Assembly: GCA_903929485.1 (NCBI GenBank)
Contig: CAIYUY010000136.1
Span: 1 to 43,954 of the forward strand
Reading direction: 5' to 3'
Source: an uncultured Desulfuromonadales bacterium
Lineage (GTDB): Bacteria; Desulfobacterota; Desulfuromonadia; Geobacterales; CAIOGM01
DNA length: 43,954 nt
The position numbers were made by a program, and so were the translations under genes. The notes beneath the pieces are model-generated. The model made no database searches, was not told the DNA's origin, and saw only the letters and a list, made by a program, of their open reading frames with translations. This document shows positions 33,101 to 41,501 of the stretch, in pieces; position 1 is the stretch's first letter, and each line of letters begins with the position of its first letter.

Positions 33101-34456
33101 TCAGTAGAACAGCTTGCGGGAGCTTTTCAGCAGGCGCGCGGCGGATGACTTATTGTCATCGCACCGGTCCAGCGCCCACTCCATTACCCGGTGGTTGACG
33201 GCGTCCAGTGAAAATTCTTCCGGCGTGAAGTCGAAACTTAATGATATCCGGTCCGTGGCCAACTCTTCGTGGCCGGCTCCTCTCTGTGGCAGCCGCAGGT
33301 GTTCCGGTTGGATCAGGTCACCGGTGGTCACGATGGTGGCATATTCCAGCAGGTTGCGTAGTTCCCGGACATTGCCGGGCCAGTCATGGGTCATCATCAG
33401 CTCAAGGGCTGACTGGGAGAGACCGGGGAGCTGCTTCCCCTGGTGCTGCCGGAAGTACTCCAGAAACTGCCGGCAAAGTTGCGGTATATCCTCCCGGCGC
33501 CGGCGCAAGGGGGGAATGGTGATAGGGAAAATGTTCAACCGGTGGTACAGATCCCGACGAAAGCTCCCCTGGTCGCAGCATGCATCCAGGTCGCGATGCG
33601 TGGCGACAATGATTCTGAAGTCAGTAGCAACCTGACGGTCTGAGCCTACCTTTTCATAGAGTCGCTCTTCCAGGAGCCGCAACAGCTTGGGTTGGAGCGA
33701 AAGGGGCATGTCGCCGATCTCGTCCAGAAACAGAGTCCCGCCTCGCGCCCGACTGCACTTGCCGTCGCGTTCACGGTCGGCGCCGGTGAAGGCCCCCTTC
33801 ACATGGCCGAACAGCTCGCTTTCCAGCAACGTTTCCGGTATGGCGGCGCAGTTCACCGCCACAAAGCTGGTCATGTTCTGCCCCGAGGCGTTATGGATGG
33901 CCCGGGCCAGAACCTCTTTGCCCACCCCGCTTTCGCCGTACAGGGCGACGGTGGTGCGGTGGGAAGCGGCCACCTGCCGGGCGGCGGCCAGAGTGCTTCC
34001 CATGAGCGGCGAGATGCTGATAATGTTTTGAAAACTGAATTTTTCCCGTTCTGAGTCAAGCATCCGGTCGTAACTGTCCCGCAACTGGGAATGGGCCAGC
34101 AGCCGTTTTACCACCAGGAGGAGCTCTTCCCAGTTCAGCGGCTTCAGCAGGTAGTCATCCGCTCCCTCTTTCATTGCCGCCACTGCGCCGTCGACGCTGC
34201 CGTGGGCCGTGATAAGCACAAAGGGGAGCTGCGGAAAGCGGCTGCGGATCCGGCGGAGCAGAGTCACCCCGTCCATCTCCGGCATGACCATGTCGGATAA
34301 CACCAGGTCAAAGGGAACCCGCTCCAACTCGGCCAGGGCTTCGGCTCCGCCGTCCATGCCGGTTACCTGATACCCCGCATCCTCCAGGTATCCCTTGATC
34401 ATGAAAAGAAAGCTCTGCTTGTCGTCAACCACCAATATTCGGGCGCCGTGATTCAT
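33101..34456 (-). CDS. NtrC-family sigma-54-dependent response regulator, C-terminally short
   Basis: Regulator of 451 residues: receiver (acidic pair D11-D12, phospho-acceptor D55 in VLSDMVMPEMDG), AAA activator domain (Walker A GESGVGKE 174-181, sigma-54 contact loop GAFTGA 221-226, Walker B TLFLDEIG about 241-248, arginine-finger region RRDLYHRLNIFP) and a Fis-type helix-turn-helix. The last is cut short: it ends DDNKSSAARLLKSSRKLFY, about seven to ten residues before the usual end of the recognition helix and tail. It would activate sigma-54 promoters in response to the kinase whose gene overlaps it by four bases (ATGA). Confidence 0.93.
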   Translation of the reverse strand: MNHGARILVVDDKQSFLFMIKGYLEDAGYQVTGMDGGAEALAELERVPFDLVLSDMVMPEMDGVTLLRRIRSRFPQLPFVLITAHGSVDGAVAAMKEGADDYLLKPLNWEELLLVVKRLLAHSQLRDSYDRMLDSEREKFSFQNIISISPLMGSTLAAARQVAASHRTTVALYGESGVGKEVLARAIHNASGQNMTSFVAVNCAAIPETLLESELFGHVKGAFTGADRERDGKCSRARGGTLFLDEIGDMPLSLQPKLLRLLEERLYEKVGSDRQVATDFRIIVATHRDLDACCDQGSFRRDLYHRLNIFPITIPPLRRRREDIPQLCRQFLEYFRQHQGKQLPGLSQSALELMMTHDWPGNVRELRNLLEYATIVTTGDLIQPEHLRLPQRGAGHEELATDRISLSFDFTPEEFSLDAVNHRVMEWALDRCDDNKSSAARLLKSSRKLFY

Positions 34457-36582
34457 GATTTATCCTCCCTCGTCATGGTGAAGCGGCAGGTAGTTCGTAA
34501 CTCCGCCACCACGATCCCCAACCGCTGGAGGGGGGCGGACGGGGCGTTCTGTTGCAGCCAGCCCGCCAGTTCCACCGGCTTTCGGTGGGACAATTGACCG
34601 CAGAGCCCCTTCAAGGTGTGGGCGGCGCGGCCCAAGGCCTCACGATCAACGCCATCCAGCGCGCTTTGCAGGGAGTGCAGCTCGTCGCTAATGTCCTGCC
34701 CCAGCAGGAGCCGGTAGCGCTGGGCGCGATCAGGGTCGCTTCCCAACCCGTTCACGACCTGCGAATTCAGCTGGGGGTTCAGTTTCGGCGGCGTCTCCAC
34801 TCCCTTGCCGCAATGAGCGGCCATGGCCCGGGCCAACTGATCGGGGATAATCGGCTTCCCCAGCACCTCGTTGATCCCTACCCGGAGACAGGCATCGCGG
34901 GTGGCGGGCTCCAGGTCGGCGGTAAGGGCGATGATGGGGACGGGGGAGTGGCGACGTTCCTGTTCCTGACGCCTGATCCGACGGGCTACTTCAATGCCGT
35001 CTATTCCCGGCATCCGGATGTCCAGCAGAATCAAGTCGAACCGTCGCTCATCCACCAGTTGCAGCCCCTGTCGGCCATCTTCGGCCAAGGTGACCTGTTG
35101 CCCCCAGCCGGTGAGAAGATCCTCCAGCAGGAGCCGGTTGAACCGGTTATCCTCCACCACCAGAATCATACCCAACGCAATCCGCACCGGATGGACGAGT
35201 AACTCTTCCGGCAGGGGTTCGCTCTCCGGCAGCGGCAGTTGGACGGTGAAGCAGCTCCCCTCACCGTCCCGGCTCTCCACGGAAATATTCCCTCCCATCA
35301 TCACCACCAGACTTCGCACGATGGCCAGGCCGAGCCCGCTACCGCCGTATTTGCGGGAGGTCCCGGGATCCAGCTGTTGAAAGGGGGTGAATAACCGCGA
35401 CTGTTTGCTTTCCGGGATGCCGATGCCGGTGTCACGCACCTGGATGCGAATCAGAGGCGGGGCGCCCTGGTCACCTTGAGGAAGAAGGGCAATGGTGCAG
35501 CTAATCTCGCCGCTTTCGGTAAACTTGACGGCGTTGCCCAGAAGGTTGGCGAGAATCTGGCGCAGACGAACCGAATCCCCCAGCACCCAGGTCGGCACTT
35601 CCTCCTGGACGACTATCCTCAGTTCCAGCATCTTCTGAGCCGCAAGGTGACGATAGTGACTGTCCAGACCGACGAGAAGTTGCCTCAGATTGAACGGTAT
35701 CGCCTCGAACTCCATCCGCCCGGCCTCGATCTTGCTCATGTCCAGGATATCGTTCACCAGATCCATGAGCGAGCGTGACGACTGTTCCAGAATGGCGTGA
35801 TACTGGCCAAGTTTTACCGGATCGGTCGTGGCGCGGGCCATGCTGCTGAATCCTACCAGGGAGTTGAGGGGAGTCCGTATTTCATGGCTCACCAAGGCGA
35901 GAAACTCGGACTTGGCTCTACTGGCCTCTTCGGCGGCGATCTTTGCCTGTTGCAGGAGAATCTCCGCCTGTTTGCGTTGGGTAAACTCCCGGGAGATCCC
36001 CTGATATCCCGTAATCTTTCCCTGGCCGTCAAACAGAGCGGTGGAGTTTATTTCCGCCCAGACCAGGCTTCCGTCCTTGCAACGGTGCCGCGCTTCGAAG
36101 GTCATGGTCCCCAACTGCTGGCCGCGCTGTACGGCCGCATGTCTCTCCATGGCGAGGTTTCTAATTGTGGCGGCCCCTTCTTCGTCGAAAAGTTCCTGGC
36201 AAAGCCGCCCGACCACTTCGTCAGCCCGGTAACCGCGCAATCGCTGGTCCGACGGGCTGATGTAGGTGACACGATAGTCACTGTCCAACCGCCAGAGCAC
36301 ATCGGGCGCATTCTCGATGAAGAGCCGATAGTAAGCCTCCCCTTCCCGCAGCTTCTCCTCCACCAACGCGCGCCGCTCAATCTCCCGCGTCAGCTCTTCA
36401 TTGGTTTGTCGCAGGGTCTCGTTTTCCTGGGAGAGTTCCTTCGTCCGTTGGGCGATGGCTTTGGCCAGCAACTGAATGACCGGCTCCTCCTGTTCCATGG
36501 GGAGCCGATCATCCCGTGTGGGATAACGTCGGAGAAAGTCATCAAAAAGCCGGCTTAATTCCCGGTAGTCGCCTGGACTCAT
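34453..36582 (-). CDS. Soluble hybrid histidine kinase (PAS, HisKA, HATPase, REC, HPt)
   Basis: Phosphorelay kinase of 709 residues with all modules intact: an N-terminal coiled coil (about 35-85), a PAS domain (about 82-205), HisKA with H233 in [11 protein letters not shown], HATPase with N350 in [15 protein letters not shown] and YGGSGLGLA, a receiver with D521 in LILLDIRMP, and a C-terminal HPt domain with H655 in [10 protein letters not shown]. It has no membrane segment or signal peptide, although the next gene upstream encodes a periplasmic haem protein. Start and stop overlap the neighbours by four bases each, so all three are coupled and probably form one pathway. Confidence 0.95.
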
Positions 36583-37172
36583 TTGACTTCACTTTCGGGA
36601 ATGTTTTCTCTTAGGGTGAGGCTGATGATTCCTCGCAGCTCCCCTTCCTTATACCCGACTCCCTTGTCCTTGGGATAACGCGCCCCGAGGGCCTTGACCA
36701 CGTCGGCGGGGATCTTGTCCGGTGCGCCGTGGCACCCCACACAGACCCCCTGCATCATGACCGGTTTGTAATAGCGCAGCGTGCGCACCTTGCCGGACTC
36801 CGTTGTGGAGAAGAGCGTGACCTCCTGGGGAAGGGGCTCTCTACTCTTCAACATTCCGTCCAGTTTTTCCAGAAGGGCTTTTTCCACCCCATCCGGGCTG
36901 TTCTCCGGATTACGCACCCTGAGGGCGGTACGCTTCATGGTAAGAGAGAAATTTTTTTCCTGATCGGCCATAATGGCGGGAGCATCCTTGGCGCAGACAT
37001 CAATACTTCCTGCTAACCCGCTCTTCAGGATGGAGAGCGTCAGGCTCTTTCGCATCTCCAGGTTCAACCGTCCCGCGGCGGCGGTTGCCTTTGCCAGTGA
37101 CGACGGCTCAACGGCCAACAACGGCGTGGCGGCCAGGATGATTCCAGCGGTCATAAAAAAAATCTTTTTCAT
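36579..37172 (-). CDS. Periplasmic c-type haem sensor-like protein (DUF3365/Tll0287-like)
   Basis: Exported protein of 197 residues. A signal peptide (MKKIFFMTAGIILAATPLLA, cleaved after about residue 20) precedes a helical and PAS-like domain, with the single haem-binding motif CVGCHG near residue 145 in YYKPVMMQGVCVGCH, the pattern of the DUF3365 family, which occurs both alone and as the sensor part of kinases. Here it is separate, with its stop overlapping the kinase start by four bases. It could report redox state or a small gas ligand, but how the signal would reach a soluble kinase is unclear. The start is two bases after the IHF gene. Confidence 0.9.
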   Translation of the reverse strand: MKKIFFMTAGIILAATPLLAVEPSSLAKATAAAGRLNLEMRKSLTLSILKSGLAGSIDVCAKDAPAIMADQEKNFSLTMKRTALRVRNPENSPDGVEKALLEKLDGMLKSREPLPQEVTLFSTTESGKVRTLRYYKPVMMQGVCVGCHGAPDKIPADVVKALGARYPKDKGVGYKEGELRGIISLTLRENIPESEVK

Positions 37173-37174
37173 GG

Positions 37175-37465
37175 TTAAACCCCCAAGCCGTCTTTATTTA
37201 TCCCCTGCTTCAGTATCTGGCTTGGCTTGAAGGTCAGCACCCGGCGGGCAGTGATGGTCATCGTCTCTCCGGTCTGCGGGTTACGTCCCTTGCGGTCATG
37301 CTTTTGATTGACTTCAAAGTTCCCGAAGCCGGAAATCTTCAGGTTCTCACCGGATACCAAGGTATCTTTCATGACGGCAAATACCTCCTCCACAAGGTCG
37401 TAGGCTTCGTTCCTGGTGCAATCCATTGTTTCGGATACCCTTGCGATTATGTCGGCTTTCGTCAT
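37175..37465 (-). CDS. ihfA: Integration host factor alpha-like DNA-bending protein
   Basis: HU/IHF-family protein of 96 residues. MTKADIIARVSETMDCTRNEAYDLVEEVF forms the helical base, LKISGFGNFEV, KGRNPQTGE (the arm tip with the intercalating Pro) and ITARRVLTFKPSQILK the DNA-binding arm, closer to IHF-alpha than to HU. AGAGGAGG lies seven bases before the ATG at 37465, a strong site. The same frame is open further upstream and includes a GIY-YIG domain, so a longer fusion product is possible. IHF normally helps sigma-54 promoters, which fits its position in an operon with an NtrC-type regulator. Confidence 0.9.
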   Translation of the reverse strand: MTKADIIARVSETMDCTRNEAYDLVEEVFAVMKDTLVSGENLKISGFGNFEVNQKHDRKGRNPQTGETMTITARRVLTFKPSQILKQGINKDGLGV

Positions 37466-37756
37466 TGACTGCTCCTCCTCTGTTGTAATAGTCGCGCTCA
37501 GCAGATTAATTTTATCATACCGGCTCATTGCCTTGATAGTGGCTTCCCTGCCGGCGGCTGAAGAGCGGCTGTGCCCCTGTTCCAGGTAGACCACGCGTAA
37601 CGGCTGCCGTCCCCTGAAATACTTGGCGCCGCTGCCATCGCCATGTTGGCGCAACCGTCTTTCCATATTCGTGGTGATTCCCGTATACAGGGAGTCGTCG
37701 GAACAGAGGATGATGTAAACGTTCCATTTCATCAAATCAGAGAGGAAAGTATGCAT
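37175..37756 (-). CDS. GIY-YIG nuclease domain fused in frame to IHF-alpha
   Basis: The frame that encodes IHF-alpha continues upstream without a stop through a YhbQ/UPF0213-type GIY-YIG domain: MKWNVYIILCSDDSLYTGIT (residues 9-28 from the ATG at 37756), ERRLRQHGDGSGAKYFRG and GREATIKAMSRYDKINLL. Eleven residues (SATITTEEEQS) then join it to the IHF methionine. Possible starts are ATG 37756 (AAGGAG three bases upstream) and ATG 37732 (no ribosome site). Normally the GIY-YIG gene would end about here. If the frame is correct, two products are expected: a 193-residue fusion and free IHF from the internal strong site. A sequencing error that removed a stop or a frameshift would be the trivial alternative. 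Confidence 0.75.
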   Translation of the reverse strand: MHTFLSDLMKWNVYIILCSDDSLYTGITTNMERRLRQHGDGSGAKYFRGRQPLRVVYLEQGHSRSSAAGREATIKAMSRYDKINLLSATITTEEEQSMTKADIIARVSETMDCTRNEAYDLVEEVFAVMKDTLVSGENLKISGFGNFEVNQKHDRKGRNPQTGETMTITARRVLTFKPSQILKQGINKDGLGV

Positions 37757-38013
37757 GGGCTCCTTGATGACAACTGTGGACGCTTCGCATAGTAGTGAAA
37801 GAATGGGAAAAATTCCACATATTTTTCCGTCGAACAGATTCCATGACCTCAAAAATAGAGAAATCACAAGGACGCCGACTGGCCGAAGCTACTCCTTGGA
37901 GCAACGAAAAGCCAAGAGCTTTCAGGAAAAAGGATGACATCAGCCGGGCAACCGAATATACTGTAGAACTGTTTCGGATCGCGTCGTTTCCAACACCCAA
38001 AAAGAGGGACACC

Positions 38014-38184
38014 ATGGCAAAACCGAATTTTGCATTTCAGAAGCGGCAGAAGGAACTGGAAAAGAAAAAAAAGAGCGAGGAAAAGTTGCAGCGTAAACAG
38101 GAGAAGAAGAGCCCCACGGAGGAAGAGGTTGCCGACACGGACGTGACGGATGGAGCCGGCGCCGACGTCTGTTTAAGCGAGTGA
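38014..38184 (+). CDS. Small highly charged hypothetical protein
   Basis: A 56-residue protein beginning MAKPNFAFQKRQKELEKKKK and then a Lys/Glu-rich coiled-coil-like helix to about residue 35, ending in an acidic, Asp/Glu-rich tail (EEEVADTDVTDGAGAD). Similar short proteins with the MAKPNFxFxKRQKELxKKKK start are common in this and related bacterial groups and have no known role. AGAGGG lies six bases before the ATG; the upstream region is shared with the divergent GIY-YIG/IHF operon. The stop at 38184 is 68 bases before the next gene. Confidence 0.7.
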   Translation: MAKPNFAFQKRQKELEKKKKSEEKLQRKQEKKSPTEEEVADTDVTDGAGADVCLSE

Positions 38185-38252
38185 CTTCCGGAGGGTGAGG
38201 TTGAGGTGTTGTGCGCGTTACATCCCTTAAAAGGAAAAGAGGAGGAAGATTT

Positions 38253-38696
38253 ATGCTCATGCAGCGAATCGTGATGGCAACCATGCTGCTACTCCTGTGC
38301 GCGGGCGCCGATTTTGCGACGGGTAAGGAGATCAGGAAGGGGGGGGGGCAAAGGAAGGAGGGGAGGGCGGCCGGCCAGAGGAAGGAGATAAAGTCGGTGT
38401 CCGCTCCGAGAAATGACGGGATGGAGATTATCAAGGTCGGTCGTTATCAGTTGCTCCCCGTGGAATATGCCGGCACTGATTTGATTAATGACACAACGGC
38501 GACGAAGAAAGAGCTGATCCTGCTGGATACGGCCACCGGTCGGATGAAGGTCTGCATGCAGAAGAGTTGGCTGAATGTGGCCGACGGCAAGGAAATTTCG
38601 GAGAGAAAGTGCCTCCCCTTCGAGACGTATGGCGAATACCCCGTGGGAACCATGAAGGGGAGGAAATCCCGTGAAGGGGAGCTTTCTCGACCCTAG
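38253..38696 (+). CDS. Exported hypothetical protein with a G10 tract
   Basis: Protein of 147 residues with an N-terminal signal peptide (MLMQRIVMATMLLLLCAGADFA) and a basic linker (KEIRKGGGQRKEGRAAGQRK) followed by a small folded-looking domain with three Cys (two in CMQKSW and RKCLPF contexts, one in the signal peptide). I do not recognise the family. GGAGG lies seven bases before the ATG. The codons for the triple Gly are part of a run of ten G (38339-38348), so slippage would shift the frame just after the signal peptide. The small charged-protein gene lies upstream and uppS downstream. Confidence 0.65.
   Translation: MLMQRIVMATMLLLLCAGADFATGKEIRKGGGQRKEGRAAGQRKEIKSVSAPRNDGMEIIKVGRYQLLPVEYAGTDLINDTTATKKELILLDTATGRMKVCMQKSWLNVADGKEISERKCLPFETYGEYPVGTMKGRKSREGELSRP
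38339..38348 (+). repeat. Homopolymeric G10 tract in a coding region
   Basis: Ten consecutive G inside the exported-protein gene at codons 29-32. Such tracts are prone to slipped-strand mutation and to sequencing error. Confidence 0.9.
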
Positions 38697-38765
38697 CTCC
38701 TCCTGTCTTTCCCCCTTTTTTTCTTGCGAAATTCGGCATGCTGTGGTTAAATCCAGCGTTAATAG

Positions 38766-38785
38766 CCCCTTACGGGGGATTTTTT
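38766..38785 (+). terminator. Weak terminator-like hairpin before uppS
   Basis: CCCC (38766-38769) pairs with GGGG (38774-38777) around TTAC, and TTTTTT (38780-38785) follows. The stem is short, and it lies only seven bases before the uppS ATG, so it may instead act on uppS expression. Confidence 0.35.
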
Positions 38786-38792
38786 CGGGGTC

Positions 38793-39536
38793 ATGATGCC
38801 GCACGGTAAGATCAGTAAAGTCCCGACACATCTGGCCGTCATCATGGACGGTAATGGGCGATGGGCCAAGGCCCGGATGCTCCAGCGGATCATCGGTCAC
38901 CAGCGTGGCGTGGAGACGGTTAAGAGGGTCGTGGAGGAGTGCTCGAATCTCGGTATCAGGTACCTGACGCTCTTCGCTTTTTCGGCGGAGAATTGGTTCC
39001 GTCCCAAGACGGAAGTCAAGGCGCTCATGCTGCTGCTCAAGCACTACATCATCGCCGAAACCAAACGGATGGCGGATGACAACATCAGATTTCAGGTGAT
39101 TGGTAACCGACCGGAACTTCCCGCCGACGTACTTCATCATCTGGACGAGGCGAGTCGGGTTACGGCGGGGAATACCGGAATGACCCTGACCTTGGCGCTC
39201 TCCTACGGCGCCCGGCAGGAGATCGCCGCGGCAGTTCGACGGATCGCTCATGACGTGGCCGCCGGTCGCCTGGCTCCCCAGGATATCGATGAAGGTTTGT
39301 TCGCCCGTTTTCTCGACACAGCCGATATGCCTGACCCCGATTTCCTCATCAGGACCAGCGGTGAGATGCGGATCAGCAATTTTCTGCTGTGGCAACTTGC
39401 CTATACTGAACTCTATTTCACCGAAAAAAACTGGCCGGACTTCGACCGTGACGAACTTATGAAGGCACTGGTTCATTATCAGTCGCGGGAGAGACGTTTC
39501 GGCAAGACCGGTGACCAGGTGAAAGGGAGGATCTGA
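38793..39536 (+). CDS. uppS: Undecaprenyl diphosphate synthase (isoprenyl transferase)
   Basis: Cis-prenyltransferase of 247 residues that makes undecaprenyl diphosphate, the lipid carrier for cell-wall and surface polymers. Region I HLAVIMDGNGRWAK with the catalytic Asp, GHQRGVETVK, region III TLFAFSAENWFRP, and the C-terminal DPDFLIRTSGEMRISNFLLWQLAYTE are all intact. ATG codons at 38793 and 38796 are both possible; the ribosome site is weak (GGGG three bases upstream). It opens the uppS-cdsA-dxr-rseP-tsaB cluster. Confidence 0.96.
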   Translation: MMPHGKISKVPTHLAVIMDGNGRWAKARMLQRIIGHQRGVETVKRVVEECSNLGIRYLTLFAFSAENWFRPKTEVKALMLLLKHYIIAETKRMADDNIRFQVIGNRPELPADVLHHLDEASRVTAGNTGMTLTLALSYGARQEIAAAVRRIAHDVAAGRLAPQDIDEGLFARFLDTADMPDPDFLIRTSGEMRISNFLLWQLAYTELYFTEKNWPDFDRDELMKALVHYQSRERRFGKTGDQVKGRI

Positions 39537-39537
39537 C

Positions 39538-40332
39538 ATCAAGCGCCTCCTGACAGCAGTCATTGCCTTACCGCTTCTCATCATCTTCATCCTCAAGGCG
39601 CCGTCGCTGCTCTTTGCCGGACTAATGGTTATCTGTTCCGCCCTCGGCCTCCATGAGTTCTACCGGATGGCGCTTCCCGGCAGATCCGGGGGATGTTCGC
39701 TCCCGACAGGTTGCGGGGCGCTTCTCCCCTTGCTGTTCTACTACGGTTTCGGAGCTCAGGCTCCGGCGTTCCTGACTGCCGCCACCCTGGCCATTGCCCT
39801 GTTTTACCTTTTCAGCGTTAACGACCTCAAAACGTCGGCCACCGAATTCGCCCTTACCGTCTCCGGGTTTCTCTACGTGCCGCTTCTTCTGGGACATCTC
39901 GTCCTCATGCGGGAGCTTCCCCACGGCATTCAATGGATCTTCCTCCTCCTTCTGCTGGTCATGTCCGGTGACACGGGGGCTTATTACGTGGGGAGGAGTC
40001 TGGGACGGCGCAAACTCTATCCGCTGGTAAGTCCCAACAAGAGCGTCGAAGGCGCCCTCGGCGGTCTGGGAGGTTCCCTGTTGGGCGCCCTGGTTGCCGG
40101 CGGGACATTCTTTCCGGAACTCACCGTGGCGGACTGTTTCCTGACCGCTTTGGTCATCGGCCCGTTGGGCCAGATGGGGGATCTGTTCGAGTCGCTTCTC
40201 AAGCGGAGCTTCGGGGTGAAAGATTCCGGAACCATAATTCCCGGTCACGGCGGGATTCTTGATCGCCTGGACAGCATCCTCTTCGCGGCGCCGGCGCTTT
40301 ACTATTACGCTGCATTAAAAGGTATTTCATGA
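39538..40332 (+). CDS. cdsA: Phosphatidate cytidylyltransferase, apparent ATC start
   Basis: Integral membrane enzyme of 264 residues making CDP-diacylglycerol from phosphatidate and CTP. About eight membrane segments are visible; [15 protein letters not shown] and the signature [19 protein letters not shown] with ILDRLDS are intact. The natural start, giving (M)[18 protein letters not shown], would be at 39538, exactly seven bases after a perfect GGAGG and one base after the uppS stop. The codon there is ATC. A stop lies in frame at 39520 and no ATG, GTG or TTG occurs before 39625, which would remove the first membrane helix and has no ribosome site. The stop overlaps the dxr start as ATGA. 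Confidence 0.9.
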
Positions 40333-41501
40333 AAAGCTTGAGTATTCTCGGTTCCACCGGCTCCATCGGTGTCAGCACCCTGGAGTTGGTTGCAGCCCAC
40401 CCGGATCGTTTTCGCATTGAGGCGCTCACCGCCGGTGCTAATCTTGACCTGTTTGCCCGACAGATAGAGACGTTCCGGCCCAGGGTCGTGTCCGTTCTGA
40501 ACGAGGAGTTGGCGCTCAAGCTCTCCGGGATGCTTTCCGGACCCGGACCCAAGCCGGAAATCATGCACGGTGTTTTGGGACTCATTGCCGCGGCTACCGC
40601 CACTGACGCCCGGATGGTCGTGGCGGCCATCGTGGGAGCCGCGGGATTGGTCCCCACCGCCGCCGCCATCAAGAGCGGGAAGGATGTGGCTTTGGCAAAC
40701 AAGGAGACTCTGGTCTGCGCCGGTTCCATCATCATGGATCTGGTGCGCGATCATGGGGTGGCGCTCTACCCGGTGGACAGCGAGCATAGCGCCGTTTTCC
40801 AATCCATTGAAGGGCATCGGAGCGAGGATATCGAAAAGATTATCCTCACCGCCTCGGGGGGGCCGTTTCTGGAGACGTCATCGGCGCGGATGGCCACCGT
40901 CACCATTGCCGATGCCCTTAATCATCCCAACTGGACCATGGGCAAAAAAATCACCATCGACTCGGCCACCATGATGAACAAGGGGTTGGAAGTTATTGAG
41001 GCGCGTTGGCTGTTTGATGTCCCGGCGGCCAAAATCGATGTCAACATTCACCCCCAGAGTATTATTCATTCCATGGTGGAATATATTGACGGCTGTGTCA
41101 TTGCCCAGTTGGGAACCCCGGACATGAAAGCGCCCATCGCCTACGCCCTTTCGTATCCCGAACGGGTTGCCACCGGTGTAACTCCCTTGGATCTGACGCT
41201 TTTTTCCGGGTTGACCTTTTTTAAGCCGGATATGGAGAAGTTCCGCTGCTTGAAATTGGCCTATGACGCTCTGGAGTGCGGTCCAAGCATGCCCGCGGTC
41301 ATGAACGCCGCCAACGAGGTTGTCGTGGCGGCATTCCTGGAAGGTCGGGTTGGTTTTACCGCCATTCCACGGGTTATAGAGGAAACCATGGCCGCCCATG
41401 AGGCGGTTGCGCTGGTTACCATCGAAGATGTTCTTCTTGCCGACCGCTGGGGGCGGCGCAAAGCTGTGGACGTCATTAAAAAAATAAACGGAGATGTTTG
41501 A
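40329..41501 (+). CDS. dxr: 1-deoxy-D-xylulose 5-phosphate reductoisomerase
   Basis: Enzyme of 390 residues catalysing the second step of the MEP isoprenoid pathway, DXP to MEP with NADPH. The nucleotide loop ILGSTGSIG (residues 6-14), [19 protein letters not shown] with the metal-binding Asp and Glu, [10 protein letters not shown] and [14 protein letters not shown] are all present. The start overlaps the cdsA stop by four bases and the stop overlaps the rseP ATG as TGATG. Isoprenoid precursors feed uppS at the head of the same cluster. Confidence 0.97.

Follow-up and report, generated by a model that had tools for sequence, protein, structure and literature searches.

Proteins of the UPF0213 type, represented by 1zg2 (BH0048), 1ywl (EF2693), and Escherichia coli YhbQ, contain a single GIY-YIG domain, and one report places YhbQ in the Slx1 family (PMC7017083). 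IHF-alpha, represented by 1ihf_A and others, is a DNA-bending nucleoid protein. Some bacterial genes have internal in-frame starts, and in AerR the short form arises from an inner start. A long and a short form from one frame are described for AerR and for SpaO of Salmonella (PMC13059759, PMC6199135).

The locus reviewed here lies in a stretch of 43,954 nucleotides (the window) from an uncultured Desulfuromonadales bacterium. It encodes the same GIY-YIG domain as the UPF0213 proteins. In those proteins, as in the relatives inspected, the chain stops once the domain is complete; the window frame instead continues into IHF-alpha and is not a stand-alone single-domain gene of the YhbQ type. Compared with known IHF-alpha, the window protein is a paralogue with an in-frame N-terminal GIY-YIG extension. 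As in a gene with an internal start, there is a second in-frame start with a strong Shine-Dalgarno (SD) site (ATG 37465), but while the products of SpaO and AerR have been demonstrated, the two products of the window gene are predicted and the arrangement was found in one genome only. A search of the open-licence literature for GIY-YIG fused to IHF or HU, or for YhbQ/UPF0213 with GIY-YIG, found no paper.

Two Domains in One Open Frame

The frame and the features within it are as follows:

37175 to 37756, minus strand: GIY-YIG domain plus IHF-alpha-like protein in one open frame, 193 aa (ORF translation, Pfam, NCBIfam)
37760 to 37765, minus strand: AAGGAG, 3 nt before ATG 37756, the probable GIY-YIG start signal, in a leader shared with the cache histidine kinase gene of a congener
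37517 to 37729, minus strand: GIY-YIG catalytic domain, UPF0213/YhbQ-like (Pfam and alignment)
37474 to 37479, minus strand: AGGAGG, the SD site for the inner IHF ATG, which the fused frame reads within Glu codons
37175 to 37465, minus strand: IHF-alpha-like paralogue with its own ATG, 96 aa (Pfam, NCBIfam, alignment)

The original prediction was that no stop separates the GIY-YIG and IHF-alpha parts, and the frame indeed has none between ATG 37756 and its end at the stop codon at 37175; it is open further upstream as well, from GTG 37867 (230 aa). Both domains pass their Pfam cut-offs within this one frame, PF01541 (GIY-YIG) with 60.4 bits against 22.6 and PF00216 (Bac_DNA_binding, the HU/IHF domain) with 101.2 bits against 22.4. 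The NCBIfam models for the alpha subunit diverge on the IHF-alpha-like second half: NF001401 (IHF alpha) scores above its cut-off (119.2, cut-off 111), and TIGR00987 (himA), at 102.3, falls below its cut-off of 120.25. Structure matches fall on each part: 1zg2 matches window residues 7–88 (1.3e-14) and 1ywl residues 13–86 (6e-13), and IHF-alpha chains match from residue 97 (E 2.9e-20). The solved IHF-alpha chain 9y7b_G, of 121 aa, is matched from its residue 22.

The GIY-YIG half keeps all 34 of the 34 columns that are invariant across 18 other GIY-YIG rows of the alignment, and by this conservation the domain looks intact, as that of a predicted nuclease. An AlphaFold model gives the domain high confidence, with ten-residue means of 91–97 over residues 11–80 and one exception of 77. 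The input alignment held GIY-YIG rows only, with none for the IHF half, so that half of the model is of low confidence and not interpretable. A mixed alignment of both domains was set aside, as the two came out misaligned. The best-placed GIY-YIG start is ATG 37756, whose site pairs with the anti-SD at −7.7 kcal/mol but stands just 3 nt away; ATG 37732, the position where most GIY-YIG relatives begin, has no SD site (+0.6 kcal/mol). The GIY-YIG sequence is 75% identical to that of a genome from another family (G086), compared with 64% to congeners. These identities hint at a transfer of the gene from another family, but the AU test does not reject a grouping with the congeners (p 0.198).

In the IHF half, 27 of the 27 columns invariant across 14 other IHF rows are kept, and with every invariant column retained in each, both halves look intact. 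ATG 37465 is the homologous start of the IHF relatives, which open with MTKAD. The very strong ribosome site predicted at this methionine is present: AGGAGG, 8 nt from the ATG, pairs with the anti-SD at −12.0 kcal/mol, and only 0.37% of 3,000 random 20-mers from the window pair as well. The IHF genes of the congeners carry SD sites of their own (−8.4 to −9.1 kcal/mol).

This IHF half is one paralogue among nine HU/IHF-type matches in the window's genome. At least 20 such matches occur in some genomes of the order (G100, G114, G120, G122, and G129), with 32 in G120. In the congener G002 (L048:5226-6288), tandem IHF-alpha-type genes have a tRNA-Pro between them, and the second is the orthologue of the window's paralogue.

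Search for the Fusion in Other Genomes and in Mobile Elements

The whole fused frame was used as the query against 141 genomes of the order, 277 of the class, and 395 drawn from the phylum, which are overlapping sets with 655 handles altogether. About the 150 best matches per search were listed, those of the class and phylum searches at E ≤ 1e-25. A fusion as similar to the query as the window's own parts would top such a ranking, and a far more diverged one may escape it. The search for the same fusion elsewhere, which the original prediction had proposed, gave no second case: among the matches listed for order, class, and phylum (655 handles), the two domains are joined in the window alone, and no other listed match spans from before query residue 50 to past residue 111. 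Three IHF matches lying in long open frames (in G492, G297, and G084) were inspected, and no GIY-YIG part precedes the IHF start. A scan of the contigs of named genomes yielded five loci, none with the fusion; the fifth (L051) matched by its GIY-YIG part alone and has no HU/IHF gene in the locus. Among the genomes searched, none from the same species turned up besides the window's own.

The fusion was not found in 72,556 plasmid records, no match among 50,697 phage records reaches 80% coverage of the query, and the viral contigs yielded no relative. One plasmid record, H9, is the sole record to cover 80% of the query (query 35–188, 29.5% identity), and it has stops in frame and no visible GIY-YIG part. 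An origin from a phage or plasmid was set aside on these grounds, the phage and viral collections having yielded no fusion and the sole plasmid match at 80% coverage being broken by stops.

The Junction and the Separate Genes of Relatives

In three congeners (G001, G002, and G003), an orthologue of the IHF paralogue (75–78% identity) and a GIY-YIG gene (62–68%) are both present, on different contigs. Separate genes are the rule in every relative looked at, and this part of the case against the fusion, which the original prediction had named in advance, holds for gene order. The GIY-YIG relatives have 78–109 residues from a conserved Trp to their end, most of them 78–88, and the matching distance in the window, from that Trp to the IHF methionine, is 87 codons; by this measure the relatives terminate about where the window's IHF gene starts. 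One codon may mark the place:

37478 to 37480, minus strand: GAG codon, opposite the TAG that ends the GIY-YIG gene in G024 (L056; ungapped alignment)

The G024 gene aligns with the window codon by codon and without a gap up to its TAG, where the window reads GAG (37480 to 37478). A missed base had been raised as a cause of the open frame; it is not needed, and a frame open only through a lost base was rejected on this ungapped alignment. The leader of the G003 IHF gene aligns with the window junction too, so the join itself, rather than one base change, may have removed the stop. Judged from these alignments, the open frame is explained by the loss of the stop through one base change or, alternatively, by a join within the leader.

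Gene Neighborhood and Rearrangement

The genes and regions on either side of the frame are listed below:

36579 to 37172, minus strand: Tll0287-like protein (PF11845), with its ATG 2 nt after the IHF stop (Pfam)
34453 to 36582, minus strand: hybrid kinase with PAS, histidine kinase, receiver, and Hpt domains (Pfam)
33101 to 34456, minus strand: sigma-54-activating response regulator (Pfam)
37733 to 38060, minus strand: upstream region with homology to G003; there a cache histidine kinase gene follows it, not GIY-YIG (alignment)
38014 to 41501, plus strand: divergent block of a small ORF, an ORF, and three genes that we take from their sequences to be uppS, cdsA, and dxr; kept in all three congeners

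The upstream region, about 330 bases before the GIY-YIG frame, aligns to G003 with a score of 165, against 61 for the best of 200 shuffles. The leader before the Tll0287 gene, compared with that of G003, does no better than chance shuffles (score 18, shuffle maximum 24). The uppS-cdsA-dxr and kinase/regulator blocks lie apart in G001, G002, and G003; the Tll0287 gene was matched beside the kinase/regulator block in G002 and G003; and the stretches read around both blocks in the three genomes have no GIY-YIG or IHF match. Because the flanking blocks are apart in the congeners and the leader leads to a kinase gene in G003, the GIY-YIG and IHF genes lie at a point where gene order has changed specifically in this lineage. 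The Tll0287 ATG lies 2 nt past the IHF stop, and the IHF paralogue is therefore probably co-transcribed with the hybrid kinase and the sigma-54 activator. IHF commonly assists sigma-54 promoters, and such help may be a reason why the join was tolerated.

The two small ORFs of the divergent block (38014–38184 and 38211–38696) have no Pfam match and stand just before uppS in the window and in the three congeners.

Origin of the Fused Frame

The reading that we consider probable, judging from sequence comparison, is a recent, lineage-specific read-through fusion, in which the loss of a stop merged two tightly spaced genes into a single frame. A change of gene order would have set a small stand-alone GIY-YIG gene directly ahead of an IHF-alpha paralogue, downstream of the leader that points away from uppS and upstream of the Tll0287/kinase/sigma-54-activator operon. 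The GIY-YIG stop would have disappeared at the join or close to it, by a change of TAG to GAG if the simplest alignment is right, and the GIY-YIG frame thus continues across the ribosome site of IHF into the IHF gene. The main product would probably be free IHF-alpha, started at ATG 37465, ribosomes starting at ATG 37756 would likely make a GIY-YIG–IHF protein as a minor product, and there would be no selection for the fusion or for a dual output. One point that counts against such a recent accident is the state of the two domains, as a fusion that keeps every invariant residue in both is not decayed.

The claim that one frame gives free IHF and a nuclease fusion stands as a prediction of two products, and its functional part lacks support: the relatives have separate genes, the join falls at their stop, and the locus is a lineage-specific rearrangement. 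The fusion is a genuine feature of the given sequence and probably yields two products at the ribosome, but it is single and recent, and nothing in this analysis supports selection for a dual-product gene.

An artefact is an unlikely alternative. A wrong base, a minority strain variant in the consensus, or a chimeric join is conceivable in a draft, probably metagenome-derived genome of 369 contigs, where a single base (G for T at 37480) decides the open frame in the simplest alignment and where the gene order was not found in the congeners. On the other side, the ungapped match to G024 up to its stop requires no missed base, the upstream leader is continuous with congener sequence, and the domains and signals are intact.

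We regard as improbable a functional dual-product gene, in which the long form is a nuclease delivered to bent or branched DNA by IHF bending and free IHF-alpha pairs with it and dilutes it. Both domains are intact, an SD-like site in the leader precedes ATG 37756, the internal site is very strong, and 9y7b_G shows that IHF-alpha bearing an N-terminal extension can be worked with as a folded protein. A GIY-YIG gene also lies directly ahead of a separate HU gene in two other loci (L049, L052), and a broken one does so in G112. Against it stand the want of a second fusion among the matches listed and in the plasmid, phage, and viral collections, and the rarity of adjacent pairs, which occur only in the window, L049, and L052/L076 of 47 loci with a GIY-YIG match; moreover, L049 and L052 carry HU and not IHF-alpha. 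The 47 loci include several places fetched twice, and the neighbor count is not unbiased because L049 and L052 were located by scanning with the fused query. A doubtful extension of the same idea is that of a nucleoid-protein nuclease seen at its very birth through the loss of a stop, in which a GIY-YIG domain borne by IHF-alpha would cut bent or branched DNA at IHF sites and free IHF-alpha would set its dose.

That the GIY-YIG stretch serves the IHF operon only as a leader, translated rarely or not at all, with no fusion produced, is very improbable: the start signal is poor at both ATGs, but the retention of all invariant GIY-YIG residues fits a gene translated until recently.

To return to the read-through fusion, its meaning depends on the long product. 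If made, this product would couple a GIY-YIG nuclease to a nucleoid protein that bends DNA, a combination not found in the genomes searched, and would be a clear case of a two-domain protein with an inner start born by stop loss between packed genes. If it is not made, the locus is a useful warning for automatic fusion calls, as a two-domain frame that is open in a single draft genome does not have to encode a fusion protein.

GIY-YIG Genes Beside HU Genes

In L049 and L052 the GIY-YIG gene has its own stop, 30 and 53 bp ahead of the HU gene, respectively. The GIY-YIG sequences of the window, L049, and L052 do not come out as a clade, though the AU test does not reject one (p 0.104). Descent of the fused frame from a conserved GIY-YIG–HU/IHF operon was set aside, as this clade is not recovered and a LexA-like gene comes after the HU gene in L052, unlike in the window.

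The GIY-YIG, HU, and LexA-like repressor genes stand in a row in two Geobacter relatives, in L052:4984-6412 and in L086 (G112:C36), with the GIY-YIG gene broken in G112, and the gene after the LexA-like one in L052 resembles that of a Y-family polymerase. In L090 (G129:C128), positions 114–1593, a frame-broken GIY-YIG remnant lies about 950 bases after an IHF-alpha-type gene.
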